Below are positions 20,580-25,971 of a stretch of DNA of 64,000 nucleotides, piece after piece. The DNA lies in assembly GCF_025150745.1 (NCBI RefSeq), contig NZ_CP102282.1:1189501-1253500 (forward strand). The letters run 5' to 3'. Below the pieces are notes generated by a model, which saw only the letters and a program-made list of their open reading frames with translations, made no database searches and was not told the origin of the DNA. This DNA comes from Eubacterium ventriosum. GTDB taxonomy: Bacteria; Bacillota; Clostridia; Lachnospirales; Lachnospiraceae. Every line of letters begins with the position of its first letter. Position 1 is the stretch's first letter. Made by a program: the position numbers and the translations under genes.

Positions 20580-20669
20580 TTACTTGATTAAAAAAAATCA
20601 ATAAAACTGATTAAAATTGTCACTATACAAACAAATTTGCGTATGTTAATATTAGACCATCCTAAAAAT

Positions 20670-20966
20670 AAAAAGGCTTTGAAAAGGAATAGTAGTTGTT
20701 AAGTGGTTAACAGAGAGCTGTCGGCAGGTGTAAGACAGCAGAAGCGATGCAATGAACTCACCTTGGAGCTGCCGGCTGAATGGTTTGGATAGTAAGACGG
20801 ACGAAGTAATCTTATTATTTCAAGAGTAGGCTTGGACGGATTCCACCGTTAAAGGGAGCGGATGTCAAAGGCATCCTTAGAGAGCATGTATAACATGAAG
20901 CAGAGTGGTACCGCGTAGGTAGAGAATACGTCCCTGCATTTCCTAATTGGAAGTGCAGGGTTTTTT
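20670..20966 (+). ncRNA. Leucine T-box leader with terminator
   Basis: The region has the T-box plan. Stem I includes the AGAGAGCTG motif (about 20710) and a specifier loop GAACTCACC (about 20753), where CTC reads as a leucine codon. The T-box sequence AGAGTGGTACCGCG (20902-20915) follows, then an intrinsic terminator pairing CCCTGCA with TGCAGGG before TTTTTT (20932-20966). Uncharged tRNA-Leu should stabilise the antiterminator and switch on leuA, which starts 118 bases downstream. Confidence 0.93.
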
Positions 20967-21084: not shown

Positions 21085-23073
21085 ATGAATTTTGGAAAGT
21101 ATAAAAGACAGTATTTTATGCCACCTACACCAACATATGATTGGGTTAAGAAAGAATATATAGATAAAGCACCTATTTGGTGTAGTGTAGACTTAAGAGA
21201 CGGAAACCAGGCACTTATAGAGCCAATGAGTTTAGATGAAAAATTAGAGTTTTTCCAGATGTTAGTTAAGATTGGCTTTAAAGAGATTGAAGTAGGTTTC
21301 CCTGCAGCATCAGAAACAGAATATAATTTTATGAGAGCCCTAATTGAACGTGACATGATTCCCGATGATGTTACTGTTCAGGTTTTAACACAGGCAAGAG
21401 AACATATTATTAAGAGAACTTTTGAAGCAGTAAAAGGTGCAAAGCACGCAGTTATTCACTTATATAACTCAACATCCGTGGCACAGCGTGAACAGGTATT
21501 TAAAAAGAGTAAAGATGAAATAAAGAAGATTGCTGTTGACGGAGCAGAATTATTACAGAAGCTTGCTAATGAAGTAGAAGGAAACTTTTCATTTGAATAT
21601 AGCCCTGAAAGTTTTTCAGGCACAGAAATGGATTATGCATTGGAAGTTTGTAATGCAGTGCTTGACGTTTGGAAACCAACACAGGATAACAAGGTTATTA
21701 TTAACTTACCTGCAACAGTTGAAAATGCCATGCCACATGTTTTTGCAACTCAGATTGAATATATGCATAAGAATTTAAAATATCGTGATGCGGTAACTAT
21801 TTCAGTTCATCCTCACAATGACAGAGGTTGTGGTGTTGCAACTGCAGAATTAAGTGTTTTGGCAGGAGCAGACAGAATTGAAGGTACTTTATTTGGAAAT
21901 GGTGAAAGAACAGGTAATGTTGATATAGTTACTTTGGCTATGAACATGATTTCACACGGTGTTGATCCACATCTTGATTTTAGCAACATGCCGGAAATCT
22001 GTGAAATGTATGAACGTGTTACAAGAATGAAAGTTGGACCACGTCAGCCATATGCAGGCGATTTGGTATTTACAGCATTTTCAGGTTCACATCAGGATGC
22101 TATTTCAAAGGGAATGGCTTGCAGAGCAGAAAGCAAAGACGAAACATGGACAGTTCCATATTTACCAATTGATCCTGTAGATGTAGGAAGAACATATGAT
22201 TCTGACGTTATCAGAATTAATAGCCAGTCAGGAAAAGGTGGCGTAAGCTATATCTTAAAACAGAGCTATGGTTTATCCTTACCTGAAAAGATGAGAGAAG
22301 AAGTTGGATATTCAGTTAAAGATGTTTCAGATAAGGAACATAAGGAATTATCACCTGCTTGGGTTTATCAGATTTTTGAAGATAAATATATTAATGATAA
22401 TAGCGTATTTAGTGTTCCTGAAACACATTATGTTCAGAGGAATGGAATTGTTGCAGAAGTAACAATTGCACAGAATGAAGGAACAAGAGTTGTTAAGAGT
22501 ACAGGTAATGGTAGACTTGATGCGGTAAGTAATGCATTTAAACAGTATTTTGATATTAGTTATGAATTATCAGTATACGAAGAGCATTCATTATCAAGAG
22601 GTTCATCATCTAAGGCTGTTTCTTATGTGGGAATAAGCTGTAATGGTAAGATGTATTGGGGTGTTGGTATAGATGAAGATATAATAAAGTCATCTATTTA
22701 TGCACTTACAGTTGCTGTTAACCAATTGGTTGCAGCATCAGGTGAAAAAAAGTTTCAGGATGAAAGATTAACTGAGATTTTGAATTATATTAATACTAAT
22801 TATCTTACAGTAACATTAGATGAGTTAGAAGAACAGTTCCATCTTTCAAAGCCTTATTTGTCAAAATATATAAAGGAAAAATCCGGAAAAACTTTCGGTG
22901 AATTAGTTAAGAATGTTCGTATGAAGAAAGCAAGAACTTTATTAAAGGGTGGCAATATGACAGTTGAATCTATTGCTGAAAAGGTTGGATATCAAAATGT
23001 GGAACATTTTACAAGATTATTTAAAAAGAAATATGGAATGACACCTGTTCAATTCCGTAATGAAGAAAAATAA
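21085..23073 (+). CDS. leuA: 2-isopropylmalate synthase fused to a C-terminal AraC-type DNA-binding domain
   Basis: Residues 1 to about 420 are the catalytic barrel of the longer LeuA type: DLRDGNQAL (36-44) holds the metal and substrate residues, and HPHND (242-246) gives the metal histidines. It condenses acetyl-CoA with 2-oxoisovalerate, the first step of leucine synthesis. Residues about 430-550 match the LeuA regulatory/dimer domain. Residues about 559-662 are a complete two-helix-turn-helix AraC domain: ILNYINTNYLTVTLDELEEQ, HLSKPYLSKYIKEKSGKTF, ESIAEKVGYQNVEHFTRLFK and KYGMTPVQFR. Usual LeuA2 ends near residue 560. There is no stop or frameshift at the junction. AAAGGAG precedes the ATG; a leucine T-box controls it. 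Confidence 0.95.
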   Translation: MNFGKYKRQYFMPPTPTYDWVKKEYIDKAPIWCSVDLRDGNQALIEPMSLDEKLEFFQMLVKIGFKEIEVGFPAASETEYNFMRALIERDMIPDDVTVQVLTQAREHIIKRTFEAVKGAKHAVIHLYNSTSVAQREQVFKKSKDEIKKIAVDGAELLQKLANEVEGNFSFEYSPESFSGTEMDYALEVCNAVLDVWKPTQDNKVIINLPATVENAMPHVFATQIEYMHKNLKYRDAVTISVHPHNDRGCGVATAELSVLAGADRIEGTLFGNGERTGNVDIVTLAMNMISHGVDPHLDFSNMPEICEMYERVTRMKVGPRQPYAGDLVFTAFSGSHQDAISKGMACRAESKDETWTVPYLPIDPVDVGRTYDSDVIRINSQSGKGGVSYILKQSYGLSLPEKMREEVGYSVKDVSDKEHKELSPAWVYQIFEDKYINDNSVFSVPETHYVQRNGIVAEVTIAQNEGTRVVKSTGNGRLDAVSNAFKQYFDISYELSVYEEHSLSRGSSSKAVSYVGISCNGKMYWGVGIDEDIIKSSIYALTVAVNQLVAASGEKKFQDERLTEILNYINTNYLTVTLDELEEQFHLSKPYLSKYIKEKSGKTFGELVKNVRMKKARTLLKGGNMTVESIAEKVGYQNVEHFTRLFKKKYGMTPVQFRNEEK

Positions 23074-23262: not shown

Positions 23263-24234
23263 ATGAAAACAATTAAAACTAAGGTAGTAGCTATTATGCT
23301 TGTTTTAGCATTAGCATTAACAGGGTGTGTCACACAGAAGTCAACAGTAGTTATTAACAGCGATGGAAGTGCTAAGATGACTACAAATATTAAAGTTGAC
23401 AAACAGGCAGCTATTCAGGCCTACATTCAGATGATGAAGTCACAGGGACAGACTGTATCAGAAGCTGAAGTAACAGCTTTGATTACATTAATGCTACCAA
23501 AATTAAAAGATGAAGGTATAGATGTAAAAACTGTTACTGAGAATGGAAAAGATTATTATGTAATTGACTATTCACAGAATATTAAAAAGGGTGATTTACA
23601 GAAAGAATTTGGTGTAGAGGGATTTGATACATATGTTACTACAGATACATTCTATATGAACGGTGACATAATGAAATTATTAGATGCAGAAGATGTGGAC
23701 ATTTTTGCTGCATACAAGGAAATGGGAGTTGAACTTAAGGAAGAAGATATTCAGACAAGCATAACAGTACAGTTCCCTAATGCTATTGTAAGCACTAACG
23801 GAGCTAAGGATGCTTCAAATCCAAATGCAGCAACATTTAGCATTCCTTTAACAGGAAAGGTTAATATGTTTGCTACAACTAAGGCTGGTGTTACAGAAGC
23901 TTCAGTTAAGGCTACAATTAAGAAACTTAACACAGTAAAAGCTACAAAGATTAAATCTTTAAAGGCTAACAAAGTTAAGAAGAATGCTAAGAAAGCTACA
24001 GTTACATTAAAGTTCAAGAAAGTAAAAGGCATTAAGAAATATGAAGTTGAATATTCATTAAAGAAGAACTTTAAGAAGAGCACAGTAAAAACTGCAAAGA
24101 AGACTACATACACAATTAAGAACCTTAAGAAAGGTAAAAAGTACTATGTAAGAGTTAGAGCTACAAAGACTAACTATGCAGGAAATGCTATTTATAGTAA
24201 ATGGGTTAAAAAGTCAGTTAAAACTAAGAAATAA
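23263..24234 (+). CDS. Lipoprotein with C-terminal fibronectin type III-like domain
   Basis: The 323-residue protein has a lipoprotein signal with lipobox LTGC (Cys22), so it is anchored outside the membrane. Residues about 25-215 form a domain I do not recognise (STVVINSDGSAKMTTNIKVD), perhaps related to bacterial LppM-like lipoproteins. Residues about 225-320 are a very Lys-rich FN3-like module (VKGIKKYEVEYSL, YTIKNLKKGKKYYVRVRA) similar to the one in the GH16 enzyme at 54487. AGGAGG precedes the start. Terminators lie on both sides, so it is monocistronic. Confidence 0.8.
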   Translation: MKTIKTKVVAIMLVLALALTGCVTQKSTVVINSDGSAKMTTNIKVDKQAAIQAYIQMMKSQGQTVSEAEVTALITLMLPKLKDEGIDVKTVTENGKDYYVIDYSQNIKKGDLQKEFGVEGFDTYVTTDTFYMNGDIMKLLDAEDVDIFAAYKEMGVELKEEDIQTSITVQFPNAIVSTNGAKDASNPNAATFSIPLTGKVNMFATTKAGVTEASVKATIKKLNTVKATKIKSLKANKVKKNAKKATVTLKFKKVKGIKKYEVEYSLKKNFKKSTVKTAKKTTYTIKNLKKGKKYYVRVRATKTNYAGNAIYSKWVKKSVKTKK

Positions 24235-24364: not shown

Positions 24365-24472
24365 TCTCTTATTAAGAGTTGGCGGAGATACAAGGATCTG
24401 TGATGCCACGGCAACCCCCGATTATGATGGAAGGTGCCCACCGGAGCAATGCAATATTGATCAATAAGAGGA
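24365..24472 (+). ncRNA. SAM-I (S-box) riboswitch upstream of metK
   Basis: The aptamer starts and ends with the P1 pair TCTCTTATT/AATAAGAG and has the core AGAGTTGGCGGAGATACA, CTGTGATGCCACGGCAACC, AAGGTGCC and CCGGAGCAA, which are S-box hallmarks. SAM binding should favour the terminator at 24491-24520 and turn off metK. Confidence 0.95.
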
Positions 24473-24616: not shown

Positions 24617-25804
24617 ATGGAGAAGAGATTATTTACTTCAGAATCAGTAACAGAAGGACATCCGGATAAAATCTGTGATCAGATTTCAGATGCGATTTTA
24701 GATGAACTTATGAGACAGGATCCAATGAGCCGTGTAGCTTGTGAAACAGCTATTACAACAGGTCTTGTACTTGTAATGGGTGAAATTACAACAAAGGGAT
24801 ATGTTGATATTCAGAAAGTTGTAAGGGAAACAATTAGAGAGATTGGTTATGACAGAGCTAAATATGGTTTTGACTGCGATACATGCGGTGTTATTACAGC
24901 TCTTGATGAACAGTCAGCAGATATTGCTTTAGGTGTTGATAAGGCATTAGAAGCAAAAGAAAATAAAATGACAGATGAAGAAATCGATGCTATAGGTGCA
25001 GGCGATCAGGGTATGATGTTTGGTTATGCAACTAACGAAACAGAAGAATATATGCCTTACCCTATTTCATTGGCTCATAAGCTTGCAAGAAAGCTTACAG
25101 AAGTTAGAAAGAATGGTACATTAAAATATTTAAGACCAGATGGAAAGAGCCAGGTAACAGTAGAATATGATGAAAATGGCAAGCCTGCAAGACTTGATGC
25201 TGTTGTTCTTTCAACACAGCATGATCCTGAAGTATCACAGGAACAGATTCATGAAGATATTAAGAAGTATGTATTTGACACTGTATTGCCACAGGATATG
25301 ATTGACGAAAATACTAAGTTCTTCGTTAACCCAACAGGACGTTTTGTAATCGGAGGACCTCACGGAGACAGCGGTCTTACAGGACGTAAGATTATTGTTG
25401 ATACTTATGGTGGATATGCCCGTCACGGCGGTGGAGCTTTCTCAGGAAAAGACTGTACAAAGGTTGACCGTTCAGCAGCTTATGCAGCAAGATATGTTGC
25501 AAAGAATATAGTAGCAGCCGGTTTAGCTGACAAGTGTGAAATCCAGTTATCATACGCAATCGGTGTTGCACATCCAACATCAGTAATGGTAGACACATTT
25601 GGAACAGGAAAACTTAGCGATGAAAAATTAGTAGAAATCATTCGTGAAAACTTTGACCTTAGACCTGCAGGAATCATCAAAATGTTAGACCTTAGAAGAC
25701 CAATCTACAAGCAGACAGCAGCTTATGGCCACTTTGGAAGAAACGACATCGATGTACCTTGGGAAAAGACAGACAAAGTAGAAATGTTAAAAAAATATAT
25801 GTAG
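24617..25804 (+). CDS. metK: S-adenosylmethionine synthetase
   Basis: The 395-residue enzyme makes SAM from methionine and ATP in the cytoplasm. It shows the start [20 protein letters not shown], the ATP-motif [12 protein letters not shown] and the P-loop-like GGAFSGKD segment. Length is normal for the family. GAGAGGAG precedes the ATG. A SAM-I riboswitch stands in front of it, giving feedback control by its own product. The stop codon lies inside the first arm of a structured downstream element (25801-25971). Confidence 0.97.
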
Positions 25805-25971
25805 CTTACAGCGTAGAAAAGTCTTACTGCACCTGTGCTTGCACAAAGGTGCAGAAAAGACTTTGAGACGCGCCCCGAACATGAGCAAAAAAGCGAAGCG
25901 AAGCTGAGTGATATGCGAATGTACGGGAAGGATTGTGTGAGTGCGAAGCACGTAGCAATCCGGTAAGCTAC
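25801..25971 (+). repeat. Multi-hairpin structured element after metK
   Basis: GTAGCTTAC (25801-25809, overlapping the metK stop) pairs exactly with GTAAGCTAC (25963-25971) and encloses three hairpins. The first pairs AAAGTCTT/AAGACTTT and TGCACCT/AGGTGCA with inner GTGC/GCAC. The second pairs CCCG-A-ACAT with ATGT-A-CGGG. The third pairs GGATTG with CAATCC. Loops carry GCGAAGCGAAGC and GTGCGAAGCAC motifs. It could be a repeated genomic element or a structured RNA in the metK 3' region. It encodes no protein. Confidence 0.65.

Follow-up and report, generated by a model that had tools for sequence, protein, structure and literature searches.

Some enzymes are already known to regulate transcription. 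In Ada, a DNA-repair methyltransferase is joined to an AraC-type helix-turn-helix (HTH) and the protein activates its own gene; the signal is methylation, and no metabolic feedback is involved. In BirA the enzyme is fused to a DNA-binding domain, an N-terminal winged helix, PutA uses a DNA-binding fold that differs from AraC, and the enzyme-like part of BzdR is a shikimate-kinase-like domain joined to an HTH. In yeast, α-isopropylmalate acts on Leu3. As described in the accessible portion of one article, PutA, a proline dehydrogenase, itself regulates transcription and represses the put operon, and BirA is both a biotin ligase and the bio repressor, controlling its own pathway (PMC6978683). 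BzdR, according to the accessible text of another, is a regulator that evolved when an enzyme became joined to a DNA-binding domain (PMC3602430).

Here we analyze leuA-araC, which encodes a 2-isopropylmalate synthase (LeuA) fused to an AraC-type HTH. No description of this fusion or of its site was found in the literature searched, which comprised titles and the starts of abstracts, most subscription papers and all of bioRxiv lying outside it. The 27-bp element preceding the leuA-araC promoter is new here.

Results and Discussion

A Complete 2-Isopropylmalate Synthase Joined to a Complete AraC-Type HTH

The features of the locus are collected in Table 1, where positions refer to the window, i.e., the whole 64,000-nucleotide stretch of DNA that was analyzed.

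Table 1. Features at the leuA-araC Locus (Window Positions)
Feature	Position	Strand	Details
27-bp conserved element TCAATAAAACTGATTAAAATTGTCACT, candidate AraC-domain binding site	20598..20624	+	upstream-region comparison, 40.4 bits
Weak −35-like hexamer TATACA	20624..20629	+	17-bp spacing; overlaps last base of the element
TG-extended −10 (TGT TAATAT)	20644..20652	+	hexamer begins 22 bp past the element
T-box leader	20670..20938	+	Rfam RF00230, 119.6 bits vs gathering score 93
leuA-araC fusion gene	21085..23073	+	662 aa; ATG at 21085, stop codon 23071–23073
LeuA catalytic domain, HMGL-like	21172..22002	+	aa 30–306, Pfam 250 bits
IPMS_D2 post-catalytic domain	22060..22260	+	aa 326–392, Pfam 116.1 bits
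LeuA allosteric/dimer domain (LeuA_dimer)	22351..22728	+	aa 423–548, Pfam 75.6 bits
Variable linker	22729..22770	+	aa 549–562
AraC-type DNA-binding domain	22771..23070	+	aa 563–662; HTH_18 at aa 583–659

The reading frame of leuA-araC is continuous, with no internal stop, and encodes a complete 2-isopropylmalate synthase plus a complete AraC-type HTH. Every Pfam match in the protein exceeded its curated cut-off. The HTH_18 match (75.0 bits against a gathering score of 33.6) covers 77 residues and both HTH motifs, HTH_AraC matched residues 622–659 with 51.6 bits, and the NCBIfam model for 2-isopropylmalate synthase (NF002991) scored 819.6 bits against a cut-off of 455, spanning residues 5–547. 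A sequence-only reading of this DNA had claimed a full LeuA and both AraC motifs in one frame, and had proposed comparing the C-terminal part with AraC profiles; the profile matches and the 662-residue frame bear the claim out.

Residues R38, D39, H242, H244, H336 and Y359 of the fusion align with R80, D81, H285, H287, H379 and Y410 of the Mycobacterium tuberculosis enzyme, which we take to be active-site residues with catalytic roles, and they are unchanged across 40 fused proteins. In the HTH, residues Y591, S593, K594, I596, T603, F604, G635, Y636, E640, F642, R644, F646 and P654 are invariant among 115 fused proteins (a set that includes duplicates from a few species), while linker positions 549–558 vary freely. 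Within the genus, dN of the HTH (0.030–0.122) was similar to that of the catalytic (0.055–0.081) and dimer (0.069–0.127) domains and lower than that of the 14-codon linker (0.097–0.653); we used dN alone, rather than dN/dS, because dS was saturated in most pairs. Judged from sequence, the enzyme part and the regulator part would both be functional.

An AlphaFold2 model (pLDDT 80.7, pTM 0.59) placed the last LeuA helix at residues 533–552, followed by a short loop and by AraC helices from residue 560 on. The model supports the domains and the helices of both HTH motifs; their relative placement in it is unreliable. In a fold search with the model, the 50 matches listed were all to the LeuA part or its relatives and none to the HTH.

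The fusion is one of only two HMGL-family matches in the genome, the other being partial (49 bits), so leucine synthesis in this organism likely depends on the fusion protein. The leuC and leuD genes lie elsewhere in the genome (locus L172), as does a leuB candidate, these names being partly read from the sequences. Directly downstream of leuA-araC, positions 23263–24234 of the window encode a 323-residue protein with a lipoprotein-like start. A SAM riboswitch (24366–24470) lies upstream of a metK-like gene (24617–25804, name read from the sequence), at whose end we noted a Clostridiales-1 RNA (25803–25969).

Distribution of the Fusion

The genome is a single contig of 2,856,089 bases. All 23 same-genus genomes (own included) gave a match to the protein, and 22 of the alignments extend through the end of the HTH, with identities of 100% in the own genome and 80–91% in the other 21; in G016 the alignment ends at a contig edge. 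Given the single contig and the full length in 22 of 23 genomes, no assembly join is involved.

In a family sample of 160 Lachnospiraceae genera, one genome each, LeuA was matched in 148 genera, and at least 38 of the 160 show the fusion across the entire HTH (in G460, which is among them, a stop lies inside the alignment). The class sample gave a match in 145 of 393 genomes, at least 14 of them fused. When the HTH alone was queried against 84,980 species genomes, the best 80 of at least 508 relatives all encoded the LeuA catalytic and dimer domains too; the frame exceeded 620 residues in 79 of these 80 loci, the exception (L070, 615 residues) being cut at the contig start. Beyond Lachnospiraceae the fusion occurs in Sporomusa, Pelosinus and Acetobacterium, and the same frame is found in the named isolates Sporomusa ovata DSM 2662 and Acetobacterium paludosum DSM 8237.

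The recurrence of the frame within the genus, across the family (at least 38 genera) and in named isolates leaves a vanishingly small probability that the fusion is an assembly or annotation artefact. A sequencing or assembly join is ruled out by the single-contig genome, the same-genus genomes and the genera of the family sample; what the earlier reading had named as counting against the fusion, close relatives lacking the HTH combined with a sequencing join at this place, is excluded by the 22 full-length same-genus genomes.

A Conserved Element Abuts the Promoter

Comparison of upstream regions yielded a 27-bp element, which in the window reads TCAATAAAAMTGATTAAATTTRTCACT and is nearly palindromic (TGATTAAATTTATCA). 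With a weight matrix and a threshold of 10 bits, the element was detected in 87 of 93 distinct fused loci, most of which had served to fit the matrix; each locus had at least 110 nt upstream, and 20 loci with duplicate proteins were left out. Positions 1–3 are identical in all 87 sites. Shuffled controls reached at most 7.8 bits (465 sequences), and one of 36 unfused leuA loci reached the threshold, with a site of 10.2 bits located 795 nt upstream of the start; the remaining 35 scored 1.4 bits or less. The six fused loci below 10 bits are L017 and the Lachnospira-like L056, L057, L062, L065 and L097.

Because the first matrix had been fitted to the loci on which it was tested, a second one was trained exclusively on 13 sites of the own genus. 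With a cut-off of 12 bits, this matrix recovered the element in 63 of 80 other fused loci, in none of the 36 unfused loci, in none of 80 reversed sequences and in one of 1600 shuffles. The family sample supplied 35 further fused loci, five of which repeat the first set; among the 30 independent new ones, 25 scored at least 10 bits (23 of them at least 15) and five scored below 10.

The position of the element relative to the promoter is nearly constant. Of the 84 loci scoring at least 15 bits, 83 were long enough for the spacing to be scored (L054 was not). The distance from the element to the −10 hexamer is 22 bp in 75 of these 83 and the −10 is TG-extended in 79, the hexamer having been chosen within 15–35 bp and ties settled in favor of distances close to 24. 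The 22-bp distance recurs in 25 of 28 loci of the later set that score at least 12 bits, four of the scanned loci being repeats. At 17-bp spacing, the first base of the −35 hexamer coincides with the last one of the element. The hexamer is weak in most loci: over 84 loci, it shares 1, 2, 3, 4 or 5 bases with TTGACA in 10, 17, 20, 36 and 1 loci, respectively. A conserved element beside the promoter, as expected of an AraC/XylS regulator, is therefore present. Class II AraC-family activators occupy such a −35-adjacent position, and a weak −35 at a fixed distance is the layout of an activator-requiring promoter of this class.

PutA and BirA are repressors, as stated in the accessible part of PMC6978683. 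By analogy the fusion protein, perhaps in a ligand-bound form, might occupy the element and repress its own promoter, and the contact of the element with the −35 hexamer would make a steric block possible. However, the fixed 22 bp to a TG-extended −10, together with the weak −35, is what a promoter in need of an activator looks like, and we regard autorepression as unlikely. Activation, though less certain than autoregulation at the element, is considerably more probable than repression, mainly because the element sits where class II AraC-family activators sit.

The Element Follows the HTH

Four genomes of the class sample (G088, G197, G208 and G307) carry a fused and an unfused leuA. Upstream of the fused copies the element scored 20.8, 13.7, 15.2 and 26.0 bits, respectively, vs −10.0, −9.8, 1.4 and −10.9 bits upstream of the unfused copies.

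In a first tree of the LeuA part alone, based on a quick search, 42 chosen fused rows formed one clade against 36 unfused ones (SH-aLRT 99). Once the 20 nearest unfused genes were added, seven unfused and two split genes fell inside the fused clade, which argues for one gain and several losses. A single origin of the fusion followed by several losses is thus the probable history, most of the losses and many inner branches being weakly supported.

Among 75 of the proteins placed on the tree, the element is present in 40 of 42 with an encoded HTH and in none of 33 without it, seven of the latter being nested inside the fused clade. As for the 20 unfused genes nearest the fused type, G472 scored 28.7 bits, G485 scored 6.4 bits (its element reads as a variant with one extra base) and the other 18 scored 4.3 bits or less. 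Two independent pairs, a number too small for a test, lie on well-supported branches, and both mostly agree. The presence of the element follows that of the HTH, both in the two-copy genomes and along the losses.

In G472 (L328) and G485 (L333), the HTH is encoded in another frame directly behind the leuA stop, and in L333 this frame comes after a run of eight A. These split genes may be either assembly errors, products of decay, or cases of natural splitting or slippage.

Genome-wide searches used the pattern TCAANWAAANTGATTAAAWWTRTCA. With at most one mismatch it occurred in 11 of 160 family genomes, namely, among the matches listed, in 10 of 38 fused genomes and in one of 122 others (G478); the reversed pattern occurred in one of 160. 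All 10 matches in fused genomes are on the same strand and, from their coordinates, 75–512 bp upstream of leuA-araC. In the class sample, with at most two mismatches, the pattern was found in 7 of 14 fused genomes (among the matches listed) and in 21 of 379 others, and the reversed pattern in 17 of 393, so that the matches in the other genomes look like background; in the fused genomes, 9 of 9 matches precede leuA-araC or leuC. That no more than 7 of 14 and 10 of 38 fused genomes match reflects the strictness of the pattern and drift of the element.

Search for Further Targets

In the own genome, with up to three mismatches, the pattern occurs only at leuA (the sole site with no mismatch) and at one other place (three mismatches, poor matrix score). 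The other matches with two or three mismatches, in unfused as well as fused genomes, were at no leu gene among the neighbors read.

The sequence-only reading had suggested that the protein might regulate leu/ilv genes or its own promoter. The second suggestion, a trigger enzyme acting at its own promoter, has strong comparative support in the conserved element, its fixed spacing to the −10 and its tracking of the HTH. The first found support at leuC in one other genus only, and in the own genome the element lies at leuA alone. In that other genus (g2), the element precedes a TG-extended −10 at leuC in four of six genomes (G045, G179, G214 and G322), where leuC appears to be controlled in the same way as leuA-araC; the leuC regions of G352 and G380 contain no site of 10 bits. 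No such site was found in 18 of the 20 leuC regions scanned, eight own-genus regions included. A T-box above threshold was found in none of the eight leuC regions scanned for one. Overall, the element would seem to serve leuA alone in most lineages.

Control of leuC or of the neighboring ilv genes in the own genome was rejected, no element being found in the 17 kb surrounding leuC. The element was likewise absent from the leuC surroundings in seven other own-genus genomes.

AraC Paralogs and the Lachnospira-like Clade

The closest stand-alone AraC proteins within the genus have HTH domains 43–48% identical to that of the fusion (seven measured), and their genes adjoin a divergent gene whose product, read from the sequence, has a secretion-like start. 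At eight such paralog loci, the element is strong in three (26.5–27.9 bits), weak in two (14.8 and 13.6 bits) and below 10 bits in three; in the five element-bearing loci a TAAAAT hexamer, read by eye, lies 21–22 bp past it. At L106, L107, L108, L112 and L290, the element is located between the stand-alone araC gene and a divergent gene for a large, secreted-looking protein. This looks like a second, seemingly unrelated regulon with the same type of site.

In the Lachnospira-like clade, the changes P590T, H641N and L645T in the recognition helices accompany a degraded element, the whole representing one evolutionary event; a changed DNA specificity is possible. These recognition-helix changes are shared by L051 and L054 and by the five Lachnospira-like loci below 10 bits listed above. 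In the Lachnospira-like loci we also noted, just upstream, a perfect, terminator-like inverted repeat.

These data bear on whether the fusion protein itself recognizes the element. The HTH might instead be a structural add-on, or act elsewhere, with another regulator binding the element: the association is a computed one, and the near-palindrome TGATTAAATTTATCA could be used by another kind of regulator. However, genomes with two leuA copies and lineages that lost the HTH both show the element coming and going together with this domain, it also adjoins the nearest AraC paralogs, and it is degraded in the one clade whose recognition-helix residues have changed. We therefore find it quite improbable that another regulator is responsible.

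A T-Box Leader Lies below the Element

A T-box leader, absent from the sequence-only reading, lies between the promoter and the gene (Table 1). Its specifier region reads GAA-CUC-ACC by eye, and the CTC at 20757–20759 is, by the specifier-reading rule, presumably a leucine specifier; the T-box of the window is therefore probably leucine-specific. As such, it probably already gives leucine-responsive control of leuA-araC.

The Rfam threshold for a T-box was exceeded in 10 of 20 and in 1 of 11 of the fused loci examined, and in 5 of 9 unfused loci. In fused loci devoid of it (e.g., L060, L064, L071, L080 and L082), the element is 126–138 bp before the start. Of the two, the element accompanies the fusion more regularly.

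The Sporomusaceae and Acetobacterium proteins nest among those of Lachnospiraceae, and the simplest reading of this arrangement is that the fusion was transferred to these groups. In the loci concerned (L035, L043, L055, L067 and L072) the element is kept, and among those scanned with Rfam the T-box is kept in the four other than L072. Retention of both suggests that the whole unit may have been transferred.

Proposed Mechanism

We consider it likely that LeuA-AraC is a trigger enzyme that binds the 27-bp element and controls its own promoter, which lies above a leucine T-box; class II activation is the most probable mode. What the sequences show directly is a conserved fusion and an element that keeps its distance to the −10 and occurs together with the HTH; from these observations we infer DNA binding, activation and a ligand. 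The LeuA part would carry out the first committed step of leucine synthesis, making α-isopropylmalate. A short linker away from the LeuA allosteric domain, the AraC domain would bind the element abutting the −35 of its own weak promoter and thereby govern transcription of its own gene. DNA binding would be set by occupancy of the LeuA part, in the simplest case by leucine on the allosteric domain and alternatively by substrate or product, so that a single protein would tune both the flux and the amount of itself that is made. The T-box of the window would then decide whether a started transcript is completed.

A ligand on the LeuA part may switch the protein from a catalytic state to a promoter-bound one and back, making this committed-step enzyme its own metabolite-gated AraC-type activator; with the T-box stacked below, initiation would then read the metabolite and elongation the charging of tRNA at one and the same gene. 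To this more specific proposal we give an even chance.

A compatible variant of the trigger-enzyme reading holds that the signal is pathway flux, i.e., 2-ketoisovalerate, acetyl-CoA or α-isopropylmalate at the catalytic site, instead of leucine. A T-box, in loci that have one, already responds to leucine by way of the tRNA, which would make a second leucine sensor redundant there, and the portion of the literature accessible to us offers a precedent in yeast Leu3 with α-isopropylmalate. Yet the HTH lies directly behind the allosteric leucine domain, and in many fused loci no T-box scored above threshold. Flux sensing is thus a tentative option, though one to be taken seriously. The ligand is somewhat more probably leucine than substrate or product, with a little room for something else.

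If the trigger-enzyme reading is true, the leucine pathway of common gut anaerobes would be under a one-protein feedback loop, and the coupling of an allosteric amino-acid domain to an AraC domain would represent a natural design for a metabolite-responsive regulator. Since a target site, a predicted binding position and natural cases of loss can be named, the proposal is directly testable. The fusion would also be a well-sampled example of an enzyme turned into a regulator by gene fusion, and one that recurs in distant Firmicutes.

Comparison with Known Systems

LeuA-AraC resembles PutA, as the accessible text describes it, in being a metabolic enzyme that would directly regulate transcription (PMC6978683). 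PutA, however, is degradative and a repressor, whereas LeuA-AraC is biosynthetic, carries an AraC domain and is probably an activator. With BirA, the likeness lies in an enzyme controlling its own pathway, again as far as the accessible text goes (PMC6978683); BirA represses, and is devoid of an amino-acid allosteric domain. Ada shares with LeuA-AraC the combination of an enzyme and an AraC-type HTH, and differs in its signal and in its nonmetabolic role. In BzdR the enzyme-like domain is the sensor, whereas LeuA-AraC retains the catalytic residues of LeuA. Finally, in yeast, judging from the accessible part of the literature, transcription of the leucine pathway is tied to the LeuA step through Leu3, much as we propose for LeuA-AraC; Leu3, however, is a separate regulator, whereas in LeuA-AraC the regulator would be the enzyme itself.
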